Source: Anaerolineae bacterium (GTDB taxonomy: Bacteria > Chloroflexota > Anaerolineae > SpSt-600). From it: a stretch of DNA of 50,921 nt. This document shows positions 5,996-46,493 of this stretch, piece by piece. The notes beneath the pieces were generated by a model. The model worked only from the letters and a program-made list of their open reading frames with translations. It searched no databases and was not told the origin of the DNA. A program made the position numbers and the translations under genes. The stretch lies in contig JANXAG010000001.1 in NCBI GenBank assembly GCA_025062375.1, positions 1 through 50,921 on the forward strand, read 5' to 3'. How positions within the stretch are numbered: position 1 is the first letter of the stretch; each line of letters begins with the position of its first letter.

Positions 5996-6069
5996 CGGGG
6001 CCGACGGGCCTCGAACCCGCGACCTCCGGCTTGACAGGCCGGTATTCTAACCAGCTGAACTACGGCCCC
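5996..6069 (-). tRNA. tRNA-Asp (GTC)
   Basis: Reverse complement folds as a cloverleaf: acceptor GGGGCCG/CGGCCCC, anticodon loop CTGTCAA (GTC), T-arm with GGTTCGAG. The discriminator is G, as expected for Asp. CCA is not encoded. It is the last gene of the tRNA operon; a T-rich stretch (minus strand TTTTATTTTTAT, 5984-5995) follows directly and may help termination. Confidence 0.96.
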
Positions 6070-6073
6070 AAAA

Positions 6074-6146
6074 CTGCGGGGGTGGGACTCGAACCCACAA
6101 CCAGACGGTTAACAGCCGCCCGCTCTCCCCGTTGAGCTACCCCGCA
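6074..6146 (-). tRNA. tRNA-Asn (GTT)
   Basis: Acceptor TGCGGGG/CCCCGCA, anticodon loop CTGTTAA (GTT) on a GGCGG-type stem, T-arm GTTCGAGTCC, discriminator G. CCA is not encoded. Only 4 bases separate it from tRNA-Asp. Confidence 0.95.
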
Positions 6147-6151
6147 TCCTA

Positions 6152-6223
6152 TGGCGCATAGGGGACTCGAACCCCTACTACGGGCTTGAAAGGCCCGTGT
6201 CCTAACCCTTAGACGAATGCGCC
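6152..6223 (-). tRNA. tRNA-Glu (TTC)
   Basis: Acceptor GGCGCAT/ATGCGCC, anticodon stem CGGGC with loop CTTTCAA (TTC), T-arm GGTTCGAGTCC. CCA is not encoded. It sits between tRNA-Phe and tRNA-Asn in the operon. Confidence 0.95.
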
Positions 6224-6229
6224 TCTAAT

Positions 6230-6302
6230 TGCCGAGGGTCGGAGTCGAACCGACGACCCTGCGGTTTTCAGCCGCATGCTCTACCACCTGAGCTACCTCG
6301 GC
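6230..6302 (-). tRNA. tRNA-Phe (GAA)
   Basis: Acceptor GCCGAGG/CCTCGGC with discriminator A, anticodon loop CTGAAAA (GAA) on a TGCGG/CCGCA stem, D-arm GCTCAGGTGGTAGAGC, T-arm GGTTCGACTCC. CCA is not encoded. Confidence 0.96.
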
Positions 6303-6306
6303 CCAG

Positions 6307-6378
6307 AGCGGGCGATGGGATTCGAACCCACGACCTCTTCCTTGGCAAGGAAGCGTTCTACCGCTGAACTACGCCCGC
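6307..6378 (-). tRNA. tRNA-Gly (GCC)
   Basis: Acceptor GCGGGCG/CGCCCGC with discriminator U, typical of Gly; anticodon stem CTTCC/GGAAG with loop TTGCCAA (GCC); T-arm GGTTCGAATCC. CCA is not encoded. Confidence 0.96.
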
Positions 6379-6390
6379 ACTTTCTATTTA

Positions 6391-6462
6391 TGGACCCGGC
6401 CGGATTCGAACCGGCGCTCTCCTCGGTGCAAACGAGGTGCCTTCCCACTTGGCCACGGGCCC
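6391..6462 (-). tRNA. tRNA-Ala (TGC)
   Basis: Acceptor GGGCCCG pairs with CGGGTCC, giving the G3-U70 wobble pair that marks alanine tRNAs. Anticodon stem CCTCG/CGAGG, loop TTTGCAC (TGC), discriminator A. CCA is not encoded. The loop contains GCA, which could be misread as a Cys anticodon, but counting the 7-base loop and the G3-U70 pair both support Ala. Confidence 0.93.
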
Positions 6463-6476
6463 CCCTTTTTAAAGAA

Positions 6477-6568
6477 CGGGGAGGCAGGGATTCGAACCCT
6501 GGAAGGAGCTTTTTAGGCCCCTTAACCGCTTAGCAGGCGGCCCCGTTAGACCTCTCCGGCACCTCCCC
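6477..6568 (-). tRNA. tRNA-Ser (GCT)
   Basis: 92 bases with the long variable arm of class II tRNAs. Acceptor GGGGAGG/CCTCCCC, anticodon loop CTGCTAA (GCT) on a GCCGC-type stem, discriminator G. CCA is not encoded. Confidence 0.95.
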
Positions 6569-6581
6569 TTTTAACGTGCCA

Positions 6582-6653
6582 CTGGGGGACGAGGATTCGA
6601 ACCTCGACTGGCGGATCCAGAGTCCGCTGTCCTGCCGATTAGACGATCCCCCA
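6582..6653 (-). tRNA. tRNA-Gln (CTG)
   Basis: Acceptor TGGGGGA/TCCCCCA, anticodon stem GCGGA/TCCGC with loop CTCTGGA (CTG), T-arm GGTTCGAATCC, discriminator G. CCA is not encoded. It is the first gene of the eight-tRNA operon, a few bases downstream of the predicted transcription start. Confidence 0.95.
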
Positions 6654-18602: not shown

Positions 18603-19817
18603 TTACGGGGAAACGATGGTCACGAATTTGACCTGGCCGTCTTTAACATAGAGGATGGCGGCAGGCTTAACGGGGTTGTGTTGATCGTCAAAGGCCACCT
18701 CGCCCGAGACCACCTGGAACTTCATCTTCTCCATGGTCTTGGCTACCTGAATGGGATCATCGGTGCCGGCAGCCTGGATGGCTTCAAAGAGGATATAAGC
18801 AGCGTCGTAAGCCAGGGTGGCAAGGGCATCCGGGACCTTCCCATACTTGGCCTTGTACTTTTCAACCCACTCCTTTACAACGGGACGTGGGTCTTCAGGA
18901 GCGTAGTGGTTGGTGAAGTAGCCGCCATCTACGGCTTTCAGGTCAAGTTGCGGGGAGTCCCAACCGTCACCACCCATCATGGTAGCAGTGATCCCGAGCT
19001 GGCGGGCCTGAGCAGCGATCACGTTCACAGTGGAGTAGTAGTCGGGCAAGTAGAGGATGTCGGGCTTGGCTTCCTTGACTTTGGTCAGGATAGCGGAGAA
19101 GTCCGTGTCACCGGCGGTGTAGGTCTCCCAGACCACTACCTTGCCGCCGCCCTTCTCAAAAGCATCGCGGAAGAACTCAGCCAGGCCGCGGACGTAGTCG
19201 TTACCCTGGTCCAGAAGGACAGCTGCGGTCTTGGCCTTCAGGGTCTCCAGTGCGAACTTGGCACCCACAAGGCCCTGGAATGAGTCAATGAAGCAGGCCC
19301 TGAATACAGTGGGTTTGGCCTTGCCTGCCTCATCAATGGTGACTTTGGGGTTAGTGGAAGTGGGGGTTATCTGGAGGACACCCTTGGCCGTAGCGATTTC
19401 GGAGACAGGTATTGAGGCCTTGGAGCACACTTCACCGATGATGAACTTAACCTTATCCTGCTCAATGACCTTATTGGCAGCGGCGACAGCAGGCTCAGCC
19501 TCGCACATACTGTCCTCAATGATGGGGACGATCTTGCGGCCGAGGACCCCGCCTTTGGCGTTCCACTCTTCAATGGCCAGGAGAGCGCCGTCACGAGTGG
19601 ACTCACCGTAAGTAGCCACATCGCCGCTTAGGGGAGCCAGAATAGCAACTTTAAGTTCTGCCGGGGCTGGCGTCGGCGTTGGTGGAACTGGGGTCGGGGT
19701 TGGCGGAACCGGCGTTGGGGTTGCCGGTGCTGGTGTGGGCGTAGGTGCTGGCTTACAAGCTACAAGCCCCGCTACGATGGTGAGCAAGGTCAGCACCATA
19801 AAGATACGCTTACCCAT
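18603..19817 (-). CDS. livK: ABC transporter substrate-binding lipoprotein, LivK type
   Basis: 404 residues from the ATG at 19817, preceded by AAGGAGGGG; a TTG at 19844 overlaps the SD and was rejected. The signal peptide ends in a lipobox with C21 (GLVAC). A Pro/Thr linker (about 22-55, PTPTPVPP-type repeats) leads to a type 1 periplasmic-binding domain (ILAPLSGDVATYGES; VIEQDKVKFIIGEVCS; TPTSTNPKVT; GDGWDSPQ; LATLAYDAAYIL). It captures the substrate outside the membrane for LivHMGF. The ligand is probably a branched-chain amino acid or similar compound. A truncated copy of its 5' end lies at 22558-22796. Confidence 0.93.
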   Translation of the reverse strand: MGKRIFMVLTLLTIVAGLVACKPAPTPTPAPATPTPVPPTPTPVPPTPTPAPAELKVAILAPLSGDVATYGESTRDGALLAIEEWNAKGGVLGRKIVPIIEDSMCEAEPAVAAANKVIEQDKVKFIIGEVCSKASIPVSEIATAKGVLQITPTSTNPKVTIDEAGKAKPTVFRACFIDSFQGLVGAKFALETLKAKTAAVLLDQGNDYVRGLAEFFRDAFEKGGGKVVVWETYTAGDTDFSAILTKVKEAKPDILYLPDYYSTVNVIAAQARQLGITATMMGGDGWDSPQLDLKAVDGGYFTNHYAPEDPRPVVKEWVEKYKAKYGKVPDALATLAYDAAYILFEAIQAAGTDDPIQVAKTMEKMKFQVVSGEVAFDDQHNPVKPAAILYVKDGQVKFVTIVSP

Positions 19818-19846
19818 GTTAAACCCCTCCTTAGGAGTTTTCAACC

Positions 19847-19860
19847 GGCAAAGCCGGTTG
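19847..19860 (-). promoter_or_regulatory. Hairpin in the liv operon leader
   Basis: ACCGGC and GCCGGT (extending to AACCGG/CCGGTT) form a short stem with a 3-base loop, at the very start of the predicted liv transcript and about 30 bases upstream of the livK start codon. A 5'-end stem may stabilise the mRNA. No riboswitch class is recognised. Confidence 0.45.
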
Positions 19861-19867
19861 TTATTTA

Positions 19868-19895
19868 ATTATAACACAATTTTCCCCCTTGTCAA
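19868..19895 (-). promoter_or_regulatory. Promoter of the livKHMGF operon
   Basis: Minus strand TTGACA (19890-19895), 16-base spacer, TATAAT (19868-19873): both hexamers are perfect consensus. The predicted start near 19861 gives a 45-base leader. The promoter begins within a few bases of the end of a broken methyltransferase fragment, which suggests a recombination junction at about 19898-19903. Confidence 0.8.
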
Positions 19896-19897
19896 AT

Positions 19898-20100
19898 TCA
19901 CCGGGCGGTGATCCCAACTCCGCAACCAGCCTCAGAACGAGGAAGTTTTTATCAAAATGGCATAATTCAGGCGATTCCTTAATAGCCTTTAATCCATCCA
20001 TATGTTTAGTCAGGCCCCAAGAGGATTGCAGCGCAAAGTAGTAATCTTTTGACGAAAGCTTTTCATCTTTCGCCGCATGCTTTCCCACAGCCTGACTCAC
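19898..20100 (-). pseudogene. Truncated, frameshifted SAM-dependent methyltransferase fragment
   Basis: The frame from the GTG at 20100 reads like the N terminus of a class I methyltransferase: KHMDGLKAIKESPELCHFDKN..LVL resembles the usual helix before motif I. After LVL (codons ending at 19933) the frame goes wrong. Shifted by one base (19904-19930) the sequence reads AGCGVGITA, a proper SAM-binding motif I. One base deleted after CTG would explain this. In the shifted frame a TGA follows at 19898-19900, right at the liv promoter. In the original frame the reading runs on to 19861 without homology. It lies 15 bases after the DUF6506 gene. Confidence 0.7.
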
Positions 20101-20115
20101 TTGAAGGACACCCCT

Positions 20116-20442
20116 TTATTCTTCTCTTGAAAACCAGCCCTCCTTCTCCATAACTTTTGCCACAATTCTATTGCTCGGAGGATCCCCTCGAGCCACAAAA
20201 ATGCCTACGTTTTCCCCTACCGCTTTCGCCAGCTCCGCAATCTCTATGTGTGTGAACCCCGGGCAAAGAATGATCGCGTGAACGCCTTCCCTTTTGACAA
20301 GGTCCTGACAAACCTGTATTGCCTGAACCTGATTCTGGACCACCCTCACAAACAGCCTATATTTAGGGGTTTCAATCAAATATCCGTGTTTCTCCGGATC
20401 TGCATCGGGAGCATGAGCAACAAACAACGCATTGAACGCCAT
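20116..20442 (-). CDS. DUF6506 family protein
   Basis: 108 residues. The sequence (APDADPEKH near residue 11, ETPKYRLFVRVV, AIILCPGFTH, VGIFVARGDP) matches my memory of the small DUF6506 family, found beside redox enzymes and methyltransferases. No catalytic motif is evident and the function is unknown. It lies 77 bases after the KstD-like flavoprotein gene on the same strand and before a broken methyltransferase, so it is probably part of the same former operon. Confidence 0.65.
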   Translation of the reverse strand: MAFNALFVAHAPDADPEKHGYLIETPKYRLFVRVVQNQVQAIQVCQDLVKREGVHAIILCPGFTHIEIAELAKAVGENVGIFVARGDPPSNRIVAKVMEKEGWFSREE

Positions 20443-20519: not shown

Positions 20520-22187
20520 TCAGCCTCTCTCCCTGAGAGCACGTACTGCGTGTTGCATAGCAATGTAAGCAAAAGTACAAGCCAGGCCAATGGTTGAACC
20601 TGGTCCGGGGTAGGTGCCACCGAATAACGAAGCCGAGGCATTGCCTGTGGCATAAAGACCAGTAATGGGCTCCCCATCCTCCCGCACGACCTGACCCCAT
20701 TCGTTGGTGAGTAGTCCGCCTGCTGTCCCTAAATCGCCGGGATAGACAGCTGTCGCATAGAAAGGAGGCTGCTCCAGTGGTCCCAGATTGGGATTGGGCT
20801 TCACCCGTGGATCACTGTAGAAACGGTCGTACGCGCTTTCGCCACGATGGAAATCCTCATCTCGTCCGCGCCGTGCCATCTCGTTGAAGCGCACTACCGT
20901 GCGCTCAAGCCCATCGGGGTCCACTCCGATGCGCAAAGCTAAGTCGCGCAGGGTATCAGCGCACACCAGAAAGTGGGGACCGCTTGCCGAGCGCGGGGTA
21001 ACGCCAGGAGGCAACGTGCCGAAAGGATAGTATCGGCGATGCCGACTTTCCATAATCAACCAGGCAGGAATAGCTGGAACCTTCTGGTGACGCTCATACT
21101 GCCACCGCCAACAGTCCACGTAGGAGGCCGATTCATTCATAAAACGTTCACCCTTGCTGTCCACAATGATGGAAAAGGGCAGAGAACGTTCACCCACTAA
21201 AAACAATGCCTGCCCTTGAGGGGTGATCACCACAGGCCCACCCCATGCCTTGTCCATCAGGGCCACAGCCGCGCCAATAGCTTGAGCAGCCCGAATGGCA
21301 TCTCCTGTGTTCCCTGGTGCACCCACCGTCCAGTTCTTGCTTGTGGGTTTGGGTAAATACTGTTCGCGCATTTCCTGGTTGTGCTCAAACCCACCTGCGG
21401 CCAGCAGTACGCCCCCTCGGGCCCTAACCCGCAGTGGACGGCCGTCGTGCTCCACCACTGCACCAACCACGCGCCCGTTTTCGGTGATCAATTCAAGGAA
21501 AGGGCTTTCCAACCAGATGGACACGTTCCGCTGTAAGCATAGATACAAGAGCTGGCCAACCAGGGAAGCCCCCATACCCATGGGCACTCGGCCCCACAAA
21601 CGGGGGACCAAACGCCCGAAGATCCGCAGTACAGTAGTAAACCCCTGCAACGTGCGCAGCGAAACCATAAAGGCAGATACTTCGTTTATGTAAAAGGGGA
21701 TAGGGGGCGCGCCCGGGTATATGCGGAGTCGCTTCAGCCAAGGCCCAAGCTGACGCCCATCAAAGATGGCACCCTCAACAGCCCGCCCGAACTTGGATCC
21801 TCCCGGCTGCTCGGGATAATAGTCCGGGTAGCCGACGGCGGCATGCCAGCGAAACCCCAGCCTGCGCAAAAATTCAACCATCTTTGGACCATATTCCAGA
21901 AAGGCTCGCCGCCGCTCAGGGGAAGTCACCGGTCCGACGTCGGGCACCACTGCTTCTAAATAACGCCAGGCATTTTCAAAAGAGTCCTTCAACCCAGCTT
22001 CAAGCGATACCGGATTGTTTGGAATCCATAGGCCACCGCCTGACATGGCGCTCGAACCGCCTATCATGTCCGTTTTCTCAATTACCAATGGCTCAAAACC
22101 AGCTTCTTTAACGACCAGGGCTCCTACCAAGGCACCTGCTCCACTGCCAACGATAAGCACATCAACCTGATGATCAAAGGAATACAT
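20520..22187 (-). CDS. KstD-like FAD-dependent dehydrogenase (3-ketosteroid dehydrogenase / fumarate reductase flavoprotein family)
   Basis: 555 residues from the ATG at 22187 (SD GAGGAGG); the frame extends 81 codons upstream through the leader and promoter and was not used. The FAD dinucleotide fold is at the N terminus (VLIVGSGAGA, residues 10-19; VIEKTDMIGGSSAMSGGG). GLWIPNN and C-terminal GTYPGPGSTIG are typical of KstD-type flavoproteins, which desaturate ring ketones with an external acceptor. The true substrate is unknown. Arginine codons lean to CGC/CGT/CGG rather than the AGG common nearby, hinting at foreign origin. An operator-like palindrome lies on its promoter. Confidence 0.85.
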   Translation of the reverse strand: MYSFDHQVDVLIVGSGAGALVGALVVKEAGFEPLVIEKTDMIGGSSAMSGGGLWIPNNPVSLEAGLKDSFENAWRYLEAVVPDVGPVTSPERRRAFLEYGPKMVEFLRRLGFRWHAAVGYPDYYPEQPGGSKFGRAVEGAIFDGRQLGPWLKRLRIYPGAPPIPFYINEVSAFMVSLRTLQGFTTVLRIFGRLVPRLWGRVPMGMGASLVGQLLYLCLQRNVSIWLESPFLELITENGRVVGAVVEHDGRPLRVRARGGVLLAAGGFEHNQEMREQYLPKPTSKNWTVGAPGNTGDAIRAAQAIGAAVALMDKAWGGPVVITPQGQALFLVGERSLPFSIIVDSKGERFMNESASYVDCWRWQYERHQKVPAIPAWLIMESRHRRYYPFGTLPPGVTPRSASGPHFLVCADTLRDLALRIGVDPDGLERTVVRFNEMARRGRDEDFHRGESAYDRFYSDPRVKPNPNLGPLEQPPFYATAVYPGDLGTAGGLLTNEWGQVVREDGEPITGLYATGNASASLFGGTYPGPGSTIGLACTFAYIAMQHAVRALRERG

Positions 22188-22339: not shown

Positions 22340-22376
22340 GCGTTATAAATATAACGCAAATGTTTTGAAGTTGCAA
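22340..22376 (-). promoter_or_regulatory. Promoter and palindromic operator of the KstD-like gene
   Basis: Minus strand TTGCAA (22371-22376), 17-base spacer, TATATT (22348-22353). An 18-base palindrome (22340-22357; arms GCGTTAT/ATAACGC around four A/T bases) covers the -10 entirely. This is the geometry of a repressor site of the TetR or similar kind. No regulator gene is adjacent, so a repressor would have to be encoded elsewhere. Confidence 0.6.
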
Positions 22377-22466
22377 AATGACAACTGTTCGCACCACCGG
22401 CCCACCGCATAGTTTCTGACCAACCAGCAAGGGGCAAAAGGTACCAAACCCCGGTGGTATATGCGT

Positions 22467-22557
22467 TCACAGCCATCGGATTGAGGGGTAGCCAAAAAGG
22501 GCAAACAATCCATAGGACAGGATAAGTGCACCAGCAGTAAGGAGGACAGCAGCTTCA
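22467..22557 (-). pseudogene. Possible C-terminal remnant of a permease gene
   Basis: On the minus strand one frame from the livK' junction reads EAAVLLTAGALILSYGLFAL and continues FGYPSIRWL before a TGA at 22467-22469. It is a hydrophobic helix with a short tail, as at the end of many permeases. No start is present and the upstream part is replaced by the livK fragment. The bases between this stop and the promoter (22378-22466) contain only a weak inverted repeat (ACCACCGG/CCGGTGGT). The permease family cannot be named from so short a piece. Confidence 0.4.
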
Positions 22558-22796
22558 TTTGGCGTTCCACTCATCAATGGCCAGGAAGGCGCCGTCACGA
22601 GTGGACTCACCGTAAGTAGCCACATCGCCGCTTAGGGTAACCAGAATAGCAACTTTAAGTTCTGCCGGGGCTGGCGTTGGCGTCGGTGGAACTGGGGTTG
22701 CTGGTGTTAGTGTGGGCGTAGGTGCCGGTTTACAAGCTACGAGCCCCGCTACGATGGTGAGCAAAGCCAGCACCATAAAAATACGCTTACCTATCA
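22558..22796 (-). pseudogene. Truncated duplicate of the livK 5' end
   Basis: Nearly identical at DNA level to 19554-19817 in intact livK, same orientation. It encodes GKRIFMVLALLTIVAGLVAC, a shortened Pro/Thr linker, then AELKVAIL..LSGDVATYGES..GAF..DEWNAK, and stops at once at a TGA created by the junction. The ATG start has become ATA, the linker has lost about 25 bases, and there is no liv promoter or SD. Homology ends sharply at 22558 and near 22796. It is a dead copy, forming a direct repeat of about 240 bases around the flavoprotein module. The 100 bases beyond, up to the argS promoter, hold nothing recognisable. Confidence 0.9.
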
Positions 22797-22882
22797 CCGG
22801 GCCCGGCTGAAAGCGGTTGCCGAGGGAGATCACCGTCCAGCGCCCCCCGAATTTATACCCGTCACTCGTGGAACACGGTCCG

Positions 22883-41076: not shown

Positions 41077-43587
41077 ATGTTTCCGGATTATGTGGTGGGG
41101 GATCTCTTCTCAAAACTGCAGGGAATTTTCCCGGCGGCTGAACCCATCCTGGCCCTTTACTGGCAGGAAAGAAACGGCTTTAGGGTTCTGACCCGGGGTG
41201 GGGAAAGGTGGGTGCCACTAGGGGAGGCGGGGGCAGAAGGATGGGTTTTGAAACTGCTTTCTTCAATTATAGTGAAGGATTGGAGGAAAGAAAGGGAAAC
41301 TTTGCCGGTGAGCTATTCCCTCCACGGAACCCCAGGAGCCTGGATGGCTACACCCCTGGTAGGCAAGGAAGGGCCCCTGGGGGTTCTATCCCTATCCAGC
41401 CCTTTACCTGGGGCCTTTGACGAACACCACCTCAGACTTCTTGAATCTTTTGCCTCTAACCTGACCCTGAGCCTTGAGAATGTTTTACTTAGCGAAAGGC
41501 TTCAAAAGCAGAGAAGAGGTTTTGAGCTTGTCCGGAAGATAAACCTTCAGATGGCTTCCGCCTCTGATCTCAAATCTCTGATTAAAGTAGCTCTGGATGG
41601 ACTTGTCAGGCTGTTTGGAGCCAGCGCTGGGTGGATAGACCTCCTTGAACAGGGGGCAATGGGAAGCCCGGAAGGGGTTGAATGGGCCAGAGGTTTCCTG
41701 GCTAAGGCTTTAGATAAAGGAGCTGCTGTAATAGCTGAAGAGTTAGGTTCAGGTTCTCCTTTCAGTTCTGTCCTTTCCCTCCCTCTGAAGAAAGGGTTTA
41801 AAAAGTTCGGAGCAATGGCTCTGGCCTTTTCCACGCCCCACTACTTCGATGAAATTGAACTTTACTTGGCTGAAGTTTTGGCCGAACAGATAGCACTGGC
41901 AGTGGAGAATTTCGCCCTCATTGGGGAAAAAGAGCAAAGAATCAGAGCTCTATCCCTCCTCAATGACCTAAGTAAAACTATCTCCTTGAGCCTCAACCTG
42001 GATGAGATAGAAATTACGGCGAGAAATTTCCTCAGCCGGACCTTTCCAGTTAAAGCCGGCGCCCTCTATCTGGAATCGGCAGGAGAAATGAAGCAGGTGG
42101 CACGCTGGGGGGAAGAACCAAAGCTGGTGGATTTTATCAGCCCTGGAATTATTGAGGAGCGTCTTGAAAGCTACAGCCCCTTTGAAATAACAGGACCCTA
42201 TGGTATGCCCACTTTTGTGGCCCCAATCCAGCTGGGCAACAAATCCATGGGTTTCATTTTGCTTATAGGCTACAAACTAAGCGAGGAAGAACAGCTCTTT
42301 TTGAGCTCAGCATGCAGCATTTTGGCAGGAGCTTTCCACAGGGCTTACCTCTCAAGGGAGATGGAAAACCGCCTGGCTGAAATGGTCACCCTCCATGCCA
42401 TATCTGAACAGGTAATGTTGAGCCTTGAGCTTCCAGTAGTCCTGGAAACCATTGTGGAAATAATAAAGCACGTGATGGATTGCCGTGCGGCCTGTATCTT
42501 CCTGCTGAACGAAGAAACCGGTTTGCTGGAGATCAGAGCTTCCAGTGGAATAACCTCTCGCTGGCGGACAGAGGCTAAACTTCGGGTTGGGGAAGGGATA
42601 AGCGGCAAAGTTGTCGCTCTTGGTCAGCCCATTTACGTTCCGGATACTTTGCTTGAACCCGATTTCATATTCTTTGATCGCTCAGTTCGCTCCATTTTGG
42701 TAGTGCCTCTGAAAGTAAGGGGCAAAGTAATTGGCACTTTGAGCGTTGACCATACCATCCCCAATGCCTTTACTTCTGACGATGAGAGGTTTCTGTCCAT
42801 TGTGGCTGTTCAGGCCGCAATCGCTATAGAGAATGCCACCCTCTACGAACGCATCAAGGAGAAAGCAGAAGCTCTTAAAAAGGCCTACGACGAAGTAAGT
42901 GAGCTGTCTCGTTTTAAGAGCGAACTTCTCCAGAACGTGTCCCACGAGCTTCGCTCCCCCCTTACCTTCATAAAGGGTTACGTGGAGCTCCTGAAGGAAA
43001 AGTCCATGGGTCCACTAACGCCCGAACAGGAAGAAGCCCTTGAGATAGTTTCCGAAAAAACGGACATCATGACCAGGCTTGTGGAAGAGATGATTGTCAT
43101 GCAGAAGTTGGAGAGGGAAAAGTTGAAGCTTGAGCCAGTTTCCCTGGAAGAAATCGCCCATCTGTCCGTTCGCTCTGCTACTTTCATGGCCCAGAGCGCT
43201 GGGATTGAATTTAAGATAGAAATACCTCCAGGTCTTCCCCCGGTGATGGGCGATAAAAGCCGGCTCATTCAGGTTTTTGACAACCTCATCAATAACGCTA
43301 TAAAATTCAGTCCCAACGGTGGGACTATAACAGTGCGCCTCAAAGACATGGGAGAGTATATCCAGGCGGAGGTAGAAGACACAGGTATAGGCATACCTGA
43401 GGATAAGCTGGATAAAATCTTTGAACGCTTTTATCAGGTAGATAGCTCTTCCAAGCGCCAGTTCGGAGGCATGGGGCTTGGCCTGGCCATAGTAAAAAGC
43501 ATAGTGGAGGCCCATGGTGGAAAGGTCTGGGCCAGGAGCAAACTGGGGAAAGGCAGCACTTTTTACTTCGTAATACCTAAGGCTTGA
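41077..43587 (+). CDS. Multi-GAF sensor histidine kinase
   Basis: 836 residues without a membrane segment. Four GAF-like domains in tandem: about 10-145 (degenerate), 150-285, 288-430 and 435-590. The last is the most canonical, with LHAISEQVM..LPVVLETIVE and VAVQAAIAIENATLYERI. A short coiled coil leads to HisKA with H623 in NVSHELRSPL, then HATPase: N-box with N736 (NLINNAIKF), DTGIGIPEDK, FERFYQVD and GMGLGLAIVK. The bound signal of the GAFs is unknown. No response regulator is in this cluster; the OmpR-type regulator at 12231 is a distant candidate. Confidence 0.92.
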   Translation: MFPDYVVGDLFSKLQGIFPAAEPILALYWQERNGFRVLTRGGERWVPLGEAGAEGWVLKLLSSIIVKDWRKERETLPVSYSLHGTPGAWMATPLVGKEGPLGVLSLSSPLPGAFDEHHLRLLESFASNLTLSLENVLLSERLQKQRRGFELVRKINLQMASASDLKSLIKVALDGLVRLFGASAGWIDLLEQGAMGSPEGVEWARGFLAKALDKGAAVIAEELGSGSPFSSVLSLPLKKGFKKFGAMALAFSTPHYFDEIELYLAEVLAEQIALAVENFALIGEKEQRIRALSLLNDLSKTISLSLNLDEIEITARNFLSRTFPVKAGALYLESAGEMKQVARWGEEPKLVDFISPGIIEERLESYSPFEITGPYGMPTFVAPIQLGNKSMGFILLIGYKLSEEEQLFLSSACSILAGAFHRAYLSREMENRLAEMVTLHAISEQVMLSLELPVVLETIVEIIKHVMDCRAACIFLLNEETGLLEIRASSGITSRWRTEAKLRVGEGISGKVVALGQPIYVPDTLLEPDFIFFDRSVRSILVVPLKVRGKVIGTLSVDHTIPNAFTSDDERFLSIVAVQAAIAIENATLYERIKEKAEALKKAYDEVSELSRFKSELLQNVSHELRSPLTFIKGYVELLKEKSMGPLTPEQEEALEIVSEKTDIMTRLVEEMIVMQKLEREKLKLEPVSLEEIAHLSVRSATFMAQSAGIEFKIEIPPGLPPVMGDKSRLIQVFDNLINNAIKFSPNGGTITVRLKDMGEYIQAEVEDTGIGIPEDKLDKIFERFYQVDSSSKRQFGGMGLGLAIVKSIVEAHGGKVWARSKLGKGSTFYFVIPKA

Positions 43588-43598
43588 GGAGGCTTATT

Positions 43599-44504
43599 AT
43601 GGCTATCACCACTTTCGGCCAGCTTATGGAGGAAGCACGCCGAAAAGGCCCCAAAATTGTAGCGATTGCTGCAGCCCATGAGGAAGAAGTCCTCCTGGCG
43701 GCCCAGGATGCGGAAAGGCTTGGCTTGGCTGAGTGCATCCTTGTGGGCGATCACTCTCTAATTCGTCGCATCGCTTCCGAGGAAGACATTGACTTGGGAC
43801 GCATGATGGTAATCCATGAACCTGATCCCATGTTAGCTGCCCGAAAGGTTATGGAGCTGGTCAGCCTTGGCCATGCCCAGCTGGCTATGAAAGGAAAGGT
43901 GGAAACAGGTCATTTCCTCAGGGCTGCTCTGGATAAAGAGATAGGCATAAGGATGGGGAAACTTCTGACCCACGTCGGAATATTTGAAATTCCCGGTTTT
44001 GACCGTCTTATCTTCATAAGCGATGCCGGCGTCGTGGTGGCACCTACCCTGGAAGAGAAAGTGGTCATAGTTCAGAATGCCATAGACGTGGCCCAGGCTC
44101 TGGGAATAGAATGCCCTAAAGTGGCTATTCTGGCTGCTACGGAAATGGTGAACCCCAAGATCCCCTCTACCCTTGATGCAGCTAACCTTTCTAAAATGGC
44201 CGACAGAGGCCAGATAAAAGGGGGAATAGTGGATGGCCCTCTGGCTTTGGATAACGCAATAAGTGAGGAATCGGCTAGGATAAAGGGAATCCAGAGCCCT
44301 GTTGCAGGCAAGGCCGATATCCTCATTACCCCGGATATAGAGGCAGGGAACGTCCTGGCCAAAGCTATAACTTATTTTGCCGGGGGAAAAATGGCCGGCG
44401 TAGTAGTCGGAGGTAAATGCCCACTGATAGTGGCTTCTCGCTCCGACCCGCATGAGACCAAGCTCATATCTATAGCTCTGGGGGTCCTTTTAGCTCCAGC
44501 TTAA
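43599..44504 (+). CDS. ptb: Phosphate acetyl/butyryltransferase family protein (first copy)
   Basis: 301 residues from the ATG at 43599 (SD GGAGG); five further codons upstream are unlikely. Landmarks: ITTFGQLMEEA at the N terminus, FISDAGVVVAPTLEEKV, VAILAATEMVNPKIPST, IKGGIVDGPLALDNA and DIEAGNVLAKA. This is the PTA_PTB family that swaps phosphate and CoA on short acyl groups. The length and MVNPK motif fit Ptb rather than Pta. No acyl kinase is in the window. A close paralogue lies two genes downstream. Confidence 0.87.
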   Translation: MAITTFGQLMEEARRKGPKIVAIAAAHEEEVLLAAQDAERLGLAECILVGDHSLIRRIASEEDIDLGRMMVIHEPDPMLAARKVMELVSLGHAQLAMKGKVETGHFLRAALDKEIGIRMGKLLTHVGIFEIPGFDRLIFISDAGVVVAPTLEEKVVIVQNAIDVAQALGIECPKVAILAATEMVNPKIPSTLDAANLSKMADRGQIKGGIVDGPLALDNAISEESARIKGIQSPVAGKADILITPDIEAGNVLAKAITYFAGGKMAGVVVGGKCPLIVASRSDPHETKLISIALGVLLAPA

Positions 44505-44514
44505 TGAGGAAGCC

Positions 44515-45600
44515 ATGTTCTTTCCTCAGCTCAGAGAAAAAATAAAGCAGTTCCCCAAAGTAGATCTGCACCGCCACTTGGAGGGCTCTATCCGTTTTTC
44601 CACCATAGTGGAGATAGCCACGCGAGAACAAATCCCTCTGCCTACACGCGATCCAGAAGAACTCCGGCGTTATGTCCAGGTGAACGAGCGGGAAACACCG
44701 GATTACCATGCTTTTCTAGAAAAATTCCGAATTCTAAGGCGCATTTATTCCAGCCGGGAAACAATCCAGAGGATCGCCTACGAAGCTGTTGTAGACGCTG
44801 CCGAGGATAACGTCCGTTATTTGGAATTGAGGTTTAATCCCTTAGCTTTAGCTCAAATGCAGGGTTTCCCAATCCGGAAGGTCAGCGAATGGGTCATTGA
44901 AGCGGGTCTGAAGGCTGCTGAAGAGAGGAAAATTCGCCTCAATTTCCTCATAACTATAACGAGGGATACTGATCTGGATACGGCGAAGGAGTTAGTCCAA
45001 CTGGCTCTGGAACTCAGGGGTAAGAGAGTGGTGGGGCTGGACTTGGCAGGCGATGAAGTTAACTACAGAGCTTACCCTTTCGCCTCCCTTTTCAGGGAGG
45101 CACGTCGCAAAGGCCTTGGCATAACCATTCACGCTGGAGAAGTTACCGGGCCAGGAAGCATATACGAAGCAGTGGAAATCCTGGGGGCTCACAGGATCGG
45201 CCATGGAGTCAAAGCCATTGAAGATGTGAACGTTCTGGACCTACTTATGTTCAAAAAAGTTGTGTTAGAAATGTGCCTGACCAGCAACCTTCAAACGGGC
45301 GCCGTCAAAAGGCTTGAGGAGCATCCATTTATGGCCCTCTTCCGCCTCGGAGTTTTTGTAACTTTAAATACCGATGACCCTGGAATTTCCGGCACAAGCT
45401 TGACCGATGAATATTTGCTGGCTCTCAGGGGATTGAAGATAACGCAGGAAGAGCTTCTGGCGGTAATCAGGAACGGCATTTTGGGAGCTTTTATCTCCCC
45501 CGCAGAAAAAATAAAGCTGGCAGAAGGCTTCAACCGGGAATTCCAGAAGTTTAACCTTCCCTCTATGCCCAAAGAAGAGGAGGTGTGGATATGGCCATAA
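44515..45600 (+). CDS. add: Adenosine deaminase
   Basis: 361 residues. Metal and catalytic motifs: KVDLHRHLEGSIR (HxH), GITIHAGEV (His and catalytic Glu region), GAHRIGHGV, and LNTDDPGISG (aspartates). It deaminates adenosine to inosine in purine salvage; related adenine or aminofutalosine deaminases cannot be excluded. It lies between two phosphate-butyryltransferase paralogues, 10 bases after the first and overlapping the second by 10 bases. Confidence 0.92.
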   Translation: MFFPQLREKIKQFPKVDLHRHLEGSIRFSTIVEIATREQIPLPTRDPEELRRYVQVNERETPDYHAFLEKFRILRRIYSSRETIQRIAYEAVVDAAEDNVRYLELRFNPLALAQMQGFPIRKVSEWVIEAGLKAAEERKIRLNFLITITRDTDLDTAKELVQLALELRGKRVVGLDLAGDEVNYRAYPFASLFREARRKGLGITIHAGEVTGPGSIYEAVEILGAHRIGHGVKAIEDVNVLDLLMFKKVVLEMCLTSNLQTGAVKRLEEHPFMALFRLGVFVTLNTDDPGISGTSLTDEYLLALRGLKITQEELLAVIRNGILGAFISPAEKIKLAEGFNREFQKFNLPSMPKEEEVWIWP

Positions 45601-46493
45601 GGAATTTCGCTCAGCTTGTAGAGGCAGCCAAAACACGAGGTCCTAAACGCTTAGCCATTGCTTTTTCCCATGAACCAGCTACAATCATAGCGGCGCGAAA
45701 AGCTTACGATGAAGGGATCGCTATCCCCATCCTTATGGGAGAGGTGAAGCTCATAAGGGAAATTGCTGCTCGCGAGGGGGTTAACCTTAACGATTTTGAG
45801 CTTGTTCAGGAGAGCAACGAACGGGAAGCTTGTGCTCGGGTGGTGGAAATGGCCAGAACTGGCCAGGTAGACCTTATAATGAACGGTCTGGCTCAGCCGG
45901 GCCACCTTTTAAGAGCGGCTCTGGACAGAGAAAAAGGCCTCCGCACCGGGAAATTGGTCACTGATGTAAGCATCTTCGAGATCCCGGGCTGGGACAAGTT
46001 GCTATTCATAAGCGATATAGGGGTGGTGGTTTCCCCCACCCTGGAACAGAAAGTGGAGATTGTCCAGAATGCCATAGATGTGGCGCATGCCCTTGGAATA
46101 GAATGCCCCAAAGTGGCCATTCTGGCGGCCACAGAGATGGTAAACCCTAAAATTCCCGTCAGCATGGATGCAGCTAACCTAGCCAAGATGGCCCAACGCG
46201 GACAGATAAAAGGCGGGATAGTGGATGGACCTCTGGCTTTGGACAATGCTATCTCCTCTCGTTCAGCTGAAATAAAAGGCATAAAAAGCGATGTAGCCGG
46301 CGACGCTGACATCATAATCGCTCCTGACATAGAAGCCGGCAATATCCTGGCCAAAGCTATAATCTACTTTGCTCGGGGCAAAATGGCAGGGGTTGCAGTG
46401 GGGGCTAAATGTCCCCTGGTCCTTCCATCCCGGGCCGATCCCCCTGAAACCAAGTTCGTATCCATAGCTTTCGGGGTATACCTGGCTTCATAA
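45591..46493 (+). CDS. ptb: Phosphate acetyl/butyryltransferase family protein (second copy)
   Basis: 300 residues from the ATG at 45591 (SD GAGGAGGTG; the GTG at 45585 is too close). Same architecture as the copy at 43599, with long identical stretches such as ALGIECPKVAILAATEMVNP and GQIKGGIVDGPLALDNA. The N-terminal third differs more (IRNFAQLVEAAKTRGPKRLAI). A local duplication followed by divergence is likely. It overlaps the convergent hydrolase gene by 6 bases. Confidence 0.87.
   Translation: MAIRNFAQLVEAAKTRGPKRLAIAFSHEPATIIAARKAYDEGIAIPILMGEVKLIREIAAREGVNLNDFELVQESNEREACARVVEMARTGQVDLIMNGLAQPGHLLRAALDREKGLRTGKLVTDVSIFEIPGWDKLLFISDIGVVVSPTLEQKVEIVQNAIDVAHALGIECPKVAILAATEMVNPKIPVSMDAANLAKMAQRGQIKGGIVDGPLALDNAISSRSAEIKGIKSDVAGDADIIIAPDIEAGNILAKAIIYFARGKMAGVAVGAKCPLVLPSRADPPETKFVSIAFGVYLAS

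Follow-up and report, generated by a model that had tools for sequence, protein, structure and literature searches.

The draft genome G000 consists of 94 contigs with a total of 2.15 Mb and is 95% complete. The window, the whole stretch of DNA that was analysed, is made up of bases 1 to 50,921 of its contig C1. Between the genes livK and argS it contains a block of about 2.65 kb that is bounded by two joints (Table 1). The gene livK encodes a substrate-binding lipoprotein of an ABC transporter. The block contains two intact genes, which encode a DUF6506 protein and a FAD-dependent dehydrogenase, and these are flanked by the stub of a methyltransferase gene on the livK side and by two further gene remnants on the other. 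The GC content of the block (47-58%) is the same as that of its surroundings, and composition does not mark its boundaries.

Table 1. Features of the block and of the adjoining livK region (window coordinates)
Feature	Position	Strand	Basis
livK, intact, branched-chain amino-acid-type ABC transporter substrate-binding lipoprotein, ATG at 19817	18603..19817	-	
liv promoter-like site, TTGACA-16-TATAAT, 12/12 consensus bases	19868..19895	-	consensus match, predicted
9-mer GCCCGGTGA, joint between stub and liv promoter region	19898..19906	-	window occurrence search
Motif I EAGCGVGITA, adjacent frame, end of the homologous stretch	19904..19933	-	profile, motif match
Methyltransferase stub, residues 1-56, GTG start	19933..20100	-	homologue alignment and profile search
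DUF6506 gene, intact	20116..20442	-	
KstD-like FAD-dependent dehydrogenase, intact, 555 aa from inner ATG	20520..22187	-	
Heme-copper oxidase subunit I (COX1) gene remnant, frame-broken, with internal losses	22368..22555 (about)	-	
Second livK 5' end, truncated, ATA as start codon, then stop	22558..22794	-	
Second GCCCGGTGA, abutting the truncated livK copy	22794..22802	-	

A search of Rfam over the window returned tRNAs only, none of them inside the block; eight tRNA genes are clustered at 5996-6653 on the minus strand. Elsewhere in the window, two similar proteins, both containing NAIDVA.ALGIECPKVAILAATEMVNPKIP, are encoded at 43584-44504 and 45585-46493 on either side of a deaminase-like gene. 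Judged by eye from their translations, these two are probably the product of a local duplication.

Methyltransferase stub and its homologues

The stub occupies most of an open frame of 79 codons (20100..19861, minus strand). Together with motif I, about 66 residues are left, split over two frames. Matches to residues 1-63 were found in 13 of 100 genomes including its own (12 of the 99 others). The 17 matches from other genomes lie in open frames of 259-334 aa, 16 of which have no internal stop. In a phylum sample of 400 genomes, seven, the own genome included, matched the 66-residue read-through stub at E <= 1e-4. At least 10 loci in GTDB genomes were confirmed as relatives, and the best of the GTDB matches listed shows 62% identity over residues 21-65.

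The read-through stub was aligned with 14 of the 17 non-own matches, namely those with a stored locus, and shares 38-53% identity with them. Invariant positions include F22, G29, T31, K32, G36, E45, L46, C47 and the GCG.G of motif I. A profile built from these 14 homologues, with the window sequence left out, was searched against all six frames of the window and gave a single significant match, SSKDYYF...VLR (32.2 bits, i-E 2.2e-11), which ends at profile position 45. The second-best match was EAGCGVGITA, which covers profile positions 45-54 and is contiguous in sequence, in the adjacent frame; by itself this piece scores 1.1 bits only. At the place expected for motif I, it agrees with the motif set derived from the homologues at 9 of 10 positions, a level reached by none of 200,000 base shuffles and at no other of the 101,782 positions on both strands of the window. 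The two complete relatives that were examined are Methyltransf_11/25 proteins. The stub thus has the family-specific N-terminal segment and a correctly placed, glycine-rich motif I, although the latter stands in the neighbouring frame, and both point to a class I SAM methyltransferase origin. The complete Rossmann-like domain in one open frame that a functional enzyme of this class has is absent, and homology stops at 19904. The methyltransferase identity had been proposed in a sequence-only reading of this DNA and is borne out by the alignment and the independent profile; the search with the frame-corrected sequence, which that reading had recommended, did return methyltransferase homologues.

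A chance resemblance to methyltransferases would fit the silence of Pfam, which has no match for the stub either alone or read through, and the match in NCBIfam is weak (E 0.0071). In a complete relative the Pfam domains start near motif I, so that the stub lies mostly outside them, and this accounts for the silence of Pfam. With the profile score, the identity to 14 relatives and the 62% match to a named genome set against it, the probability of chance resemblance is practically negligible.

The closest named relative among the matches listed is a locus of a Methanocellales archaeon (L067, JASEEY010000001.1, 5953-6348; 62% over 45 residues), which is itself a frame of 131 aa only and departs from the family after LPFD. 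In view of this locus, relics of the family may be common. Another relative, G086:C82:50195-50338, has an internal TGA, and a further copy lies about 1 kb from it.

Between the stub, which runs to 19933, and motif I there is a net loss of one base. This one-base slip, also claimed from sequence alone, is present in the assembly, where the profile runs contiguously from the stub into the neighbouring frame. It rests on one base of one assembly and could be a sequencing or assembly error. The truncation is independent of the slip and stands whether or not the slip is real. Most relatives go on after motif I with CYLA or similar, whereas the window runs after 19904 into GCCCGGTGAATTTGACA and continues the family in no frame. 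Motif I ends at about residue 60 of L003, a relative of 272 aa, which means that some three quarters of the gene are missing; the earlier claim of truncation holds, but its estimate of two thirds is too low for homologues of 259-334 aa. No second piece of the gene was found when the own genome, in its draft state, was searched with the L003 protein. Besides the stub, that search returned two further methyltransferases, with frames of 272 and 292 aa, at 38-41% over the general domain. As assembled, the frame is broken and the gene lacks most of the length that intact homologues have, which makes the stub a pseudogene or gene remnant.

Joints of the block

At the livK side, the liv promoter-like site starts 8 bases beyond the end of homology. 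The last homologous codon, GCC (to 19904), doubles as the start of GCCCGGTGA (19906-19898), which leads to TTGACA at 19895; this makes 19904-19907 the best position for the joint. The sequence-only reading had correctly predicted that a joint abuts the liv promoter, but had placed it at about 19898-19903, beyond the end of homology. The promoter had been called a perfect consensus within ten bases of the fragment; this is right for the hexamers and the distance, but the spacer is 16 nt. A hairpin, CAACCGGCAAAGCCGGTTG, lies in the livK leader at 19842-19860 and is followed by a T-rich stretch on the plus strand only.

The 79-codon frame might instead be a functional small gene that lies between DUF6506 and livK and acts on liv expression as a translated leader or through a small protein. 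Its GTG start lies 15 bases past the DUF6506 stop, and from its end it is 27 bases to a Shine-Dalgarno-like AAGGAGG and 43 to the livK ATG. Against such a gene, its last residues are translated from the liv promoter region and have no counterpart in the family, and residues 1-56 correspond to those of complete enzymes, whose motif I has here slipped out of frame. The matches in other genomes lie in long frames, and a conserved short version was not found among them. A live short gene is accordingly very unlikely. Slightly less likely still is a stub kept as a short translated leader that would couple expression of the FAD dehydrogenase and DUF6506 genes to the liv transporter through the new joint, a promoter-side fusion in the making. 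The stub is, with high probability, a dead, truncated methyltransferase gene at a recombination joint.

The 9-mer GCCCGGTGA occurs just twice in the window, once at each joint. At the far joint it abuts the 5' end of livK in a second, truncated copy, which has the same orientation as livK. The two copies share 83% identity over 264 columns, with an in-frame gap of 27 nt, and differ at 17 bases, of which 8 alter the residue. In the truncated copy a stop follows directly after the last shared codon, and the coordinates indicate that, compared with the left copy, it lacks 81 bases of promoter and leader. For the match between the 8 bases upstream of the right copy and the 40 bases upstream of TTGACA, a rough hand estimate gives a chance of about 1 in 2,000; because the match was noticed after the fact, it is a clue and not a test.

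The truncated livK copy is joined to an internal remnant of a COX1 gene. An intact paralogue is present on contig C17 of the same genome, and a tblastn search with this paralogue as query aligned 22553-22368 at E 8e-8, the alignment containing a stop and gaps. The DNA alignment of the remnant with the paralogue shows small and large internal losses. An assignment of 22555-22368 to an MFS transporter remnant was dropped, as tblastn and the DNA alignment identify COX1.

The whole arrangement might also be an assembly artefact: the slip would be due to an error in the consensus, the joint would be a false union of two places, and the organism would have the complete gene. The genome is a draft in 94 contigs, and the joint adjoins sequence that is partly repeated 3 kb away. 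The two livK copies, on the other hand, differ by the 17 bases and the 27-nt gap given above, the 9 bases common to the joints are short for confusion of an assembler, and the other parts of the methyltransferase gene are on no contig. Furthermore, the remnant of an unrelated second gene stands at the other joint, and the remaining long genes of the window, frames of 1137 and 1112 aa among them, are uninterrupted. An artefact is consequently unlikely.

Intact genes between the relics

The FAD dehydrogenase has its full length, with 80% identity to a gene in genome G212 and 70-71% identity to genes in G220, G264 and G272. Its top-scoring model is that of 3-ketosteroid dehydrogenase, but the score is below the model cut-off. 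The DUF6506 gene is also full length; it was found in 7 of 400 genomes including its own, and its best relative (58% identity) is in G230. A literature search on DUF6506 returned no papers.

No methyltransferase of the stub's kind was found near DUF6506 in the four neighbourhoods read (six non-own genomes matched; the G230 contig ends about 0.9 kb past the gene) or near the FAD dehydrogenase in the two neighbourhoods read (ten non-own genomes matched). Such a methyltransferase was present in only one of the 11 genomes with a DUF6506 or FAD dehydrogenase relative (G258), on another contig. The idea that the genes for the FAD dehydrogenase, DUF6506 and this methyltransferase make up a conserved operon was rejected, as the partners are not adjacent in the neighbourhoods read and co-occur in that one genome of 11. 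Because the partners were not found as neighbours elsewhere, the block looks like a patchwork and not a conserved operon. The sequence-only reading had described the module as decaying. This applies to both ends, which are relics. The DUF6506 and FAD dehydrogenase genes that they enclose are open over their full length, and with these two intact, decay is not evident for the entire block.

Origin of the block and comparison with known systems

The best explanation of the locus as a whole is a class I SAM methyltransferase gene of which a dead 5' quarter is left, at the place where a rearranged block meets the liv promoter; confidence in this explanation is considerable. The block is interpreted as an ordinary scar of recombination that includes a partial duplication of livK.

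One or more illegitimate or single-crossover events would have set the block beside livK, and the piece from GCCCGGTGA through livK codon 88 would have been duplicated upon its arrival. A possible route is single-crossover integration of a circle bearing a livK fragment; template switching at short shared sequences is an alternative. The outer livK copy would have lost its promoter and then decayed, and the non-functional parts of the block would have decayed afterwards, while two genes remained open. The stub would be inert, and livK would be expressed from its own promoter. This particular history, with duplication of the livK piece on arrival of the block, is tentative and falls a little short of an even chance. 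A mobile element as the cause is unsupported, as no terminal inverted repeats were found at the block ends and no recombinase among the block genes. The uninterrupted (empty) site was sought in two genomes: the contig of the same-genus genome G001 ends inside argS, and no such site was seen in G002. A relative that still has the empty site would make it possible to test in which order the events took place.

The locus illustrates the scars that recombination leaves in bacterial chromosomes, with three unrelated gene stumps and two intact genes between livK and argS. For annotation, the 79-aa frame should be recorded as a methyltransferase pseudogene and not as a hypothetical protein.

The stub shares the N-terminal segment YF.LQA..G.TKHMGG...T.ELIELCHI and motif I with the Methyltransf_11/25-type class I SAM methyltransferases of Chloroflexota and other groups, but lacks their substrate-binding and later motifs. 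Campbell-type single-crossover integration leaves one truncated and one full copy of the target. The block resembles its products in that a truncated livK 5' copy and a full livK form direct repeats flanking the insert. It differs from them in that no integrase, plasmid gene, circular donor or empty site was seen and in that the livK copies have diverged. Truncated, frame-shifted gene remnants at rearrangement joints are a well-known general kind in bacteria. The stub, which has no feature that distinguishes it from this kind, shares with such pseudogenes its truncation, its frame slip, its position at a joint and the presence of further remnants adjacent to it.
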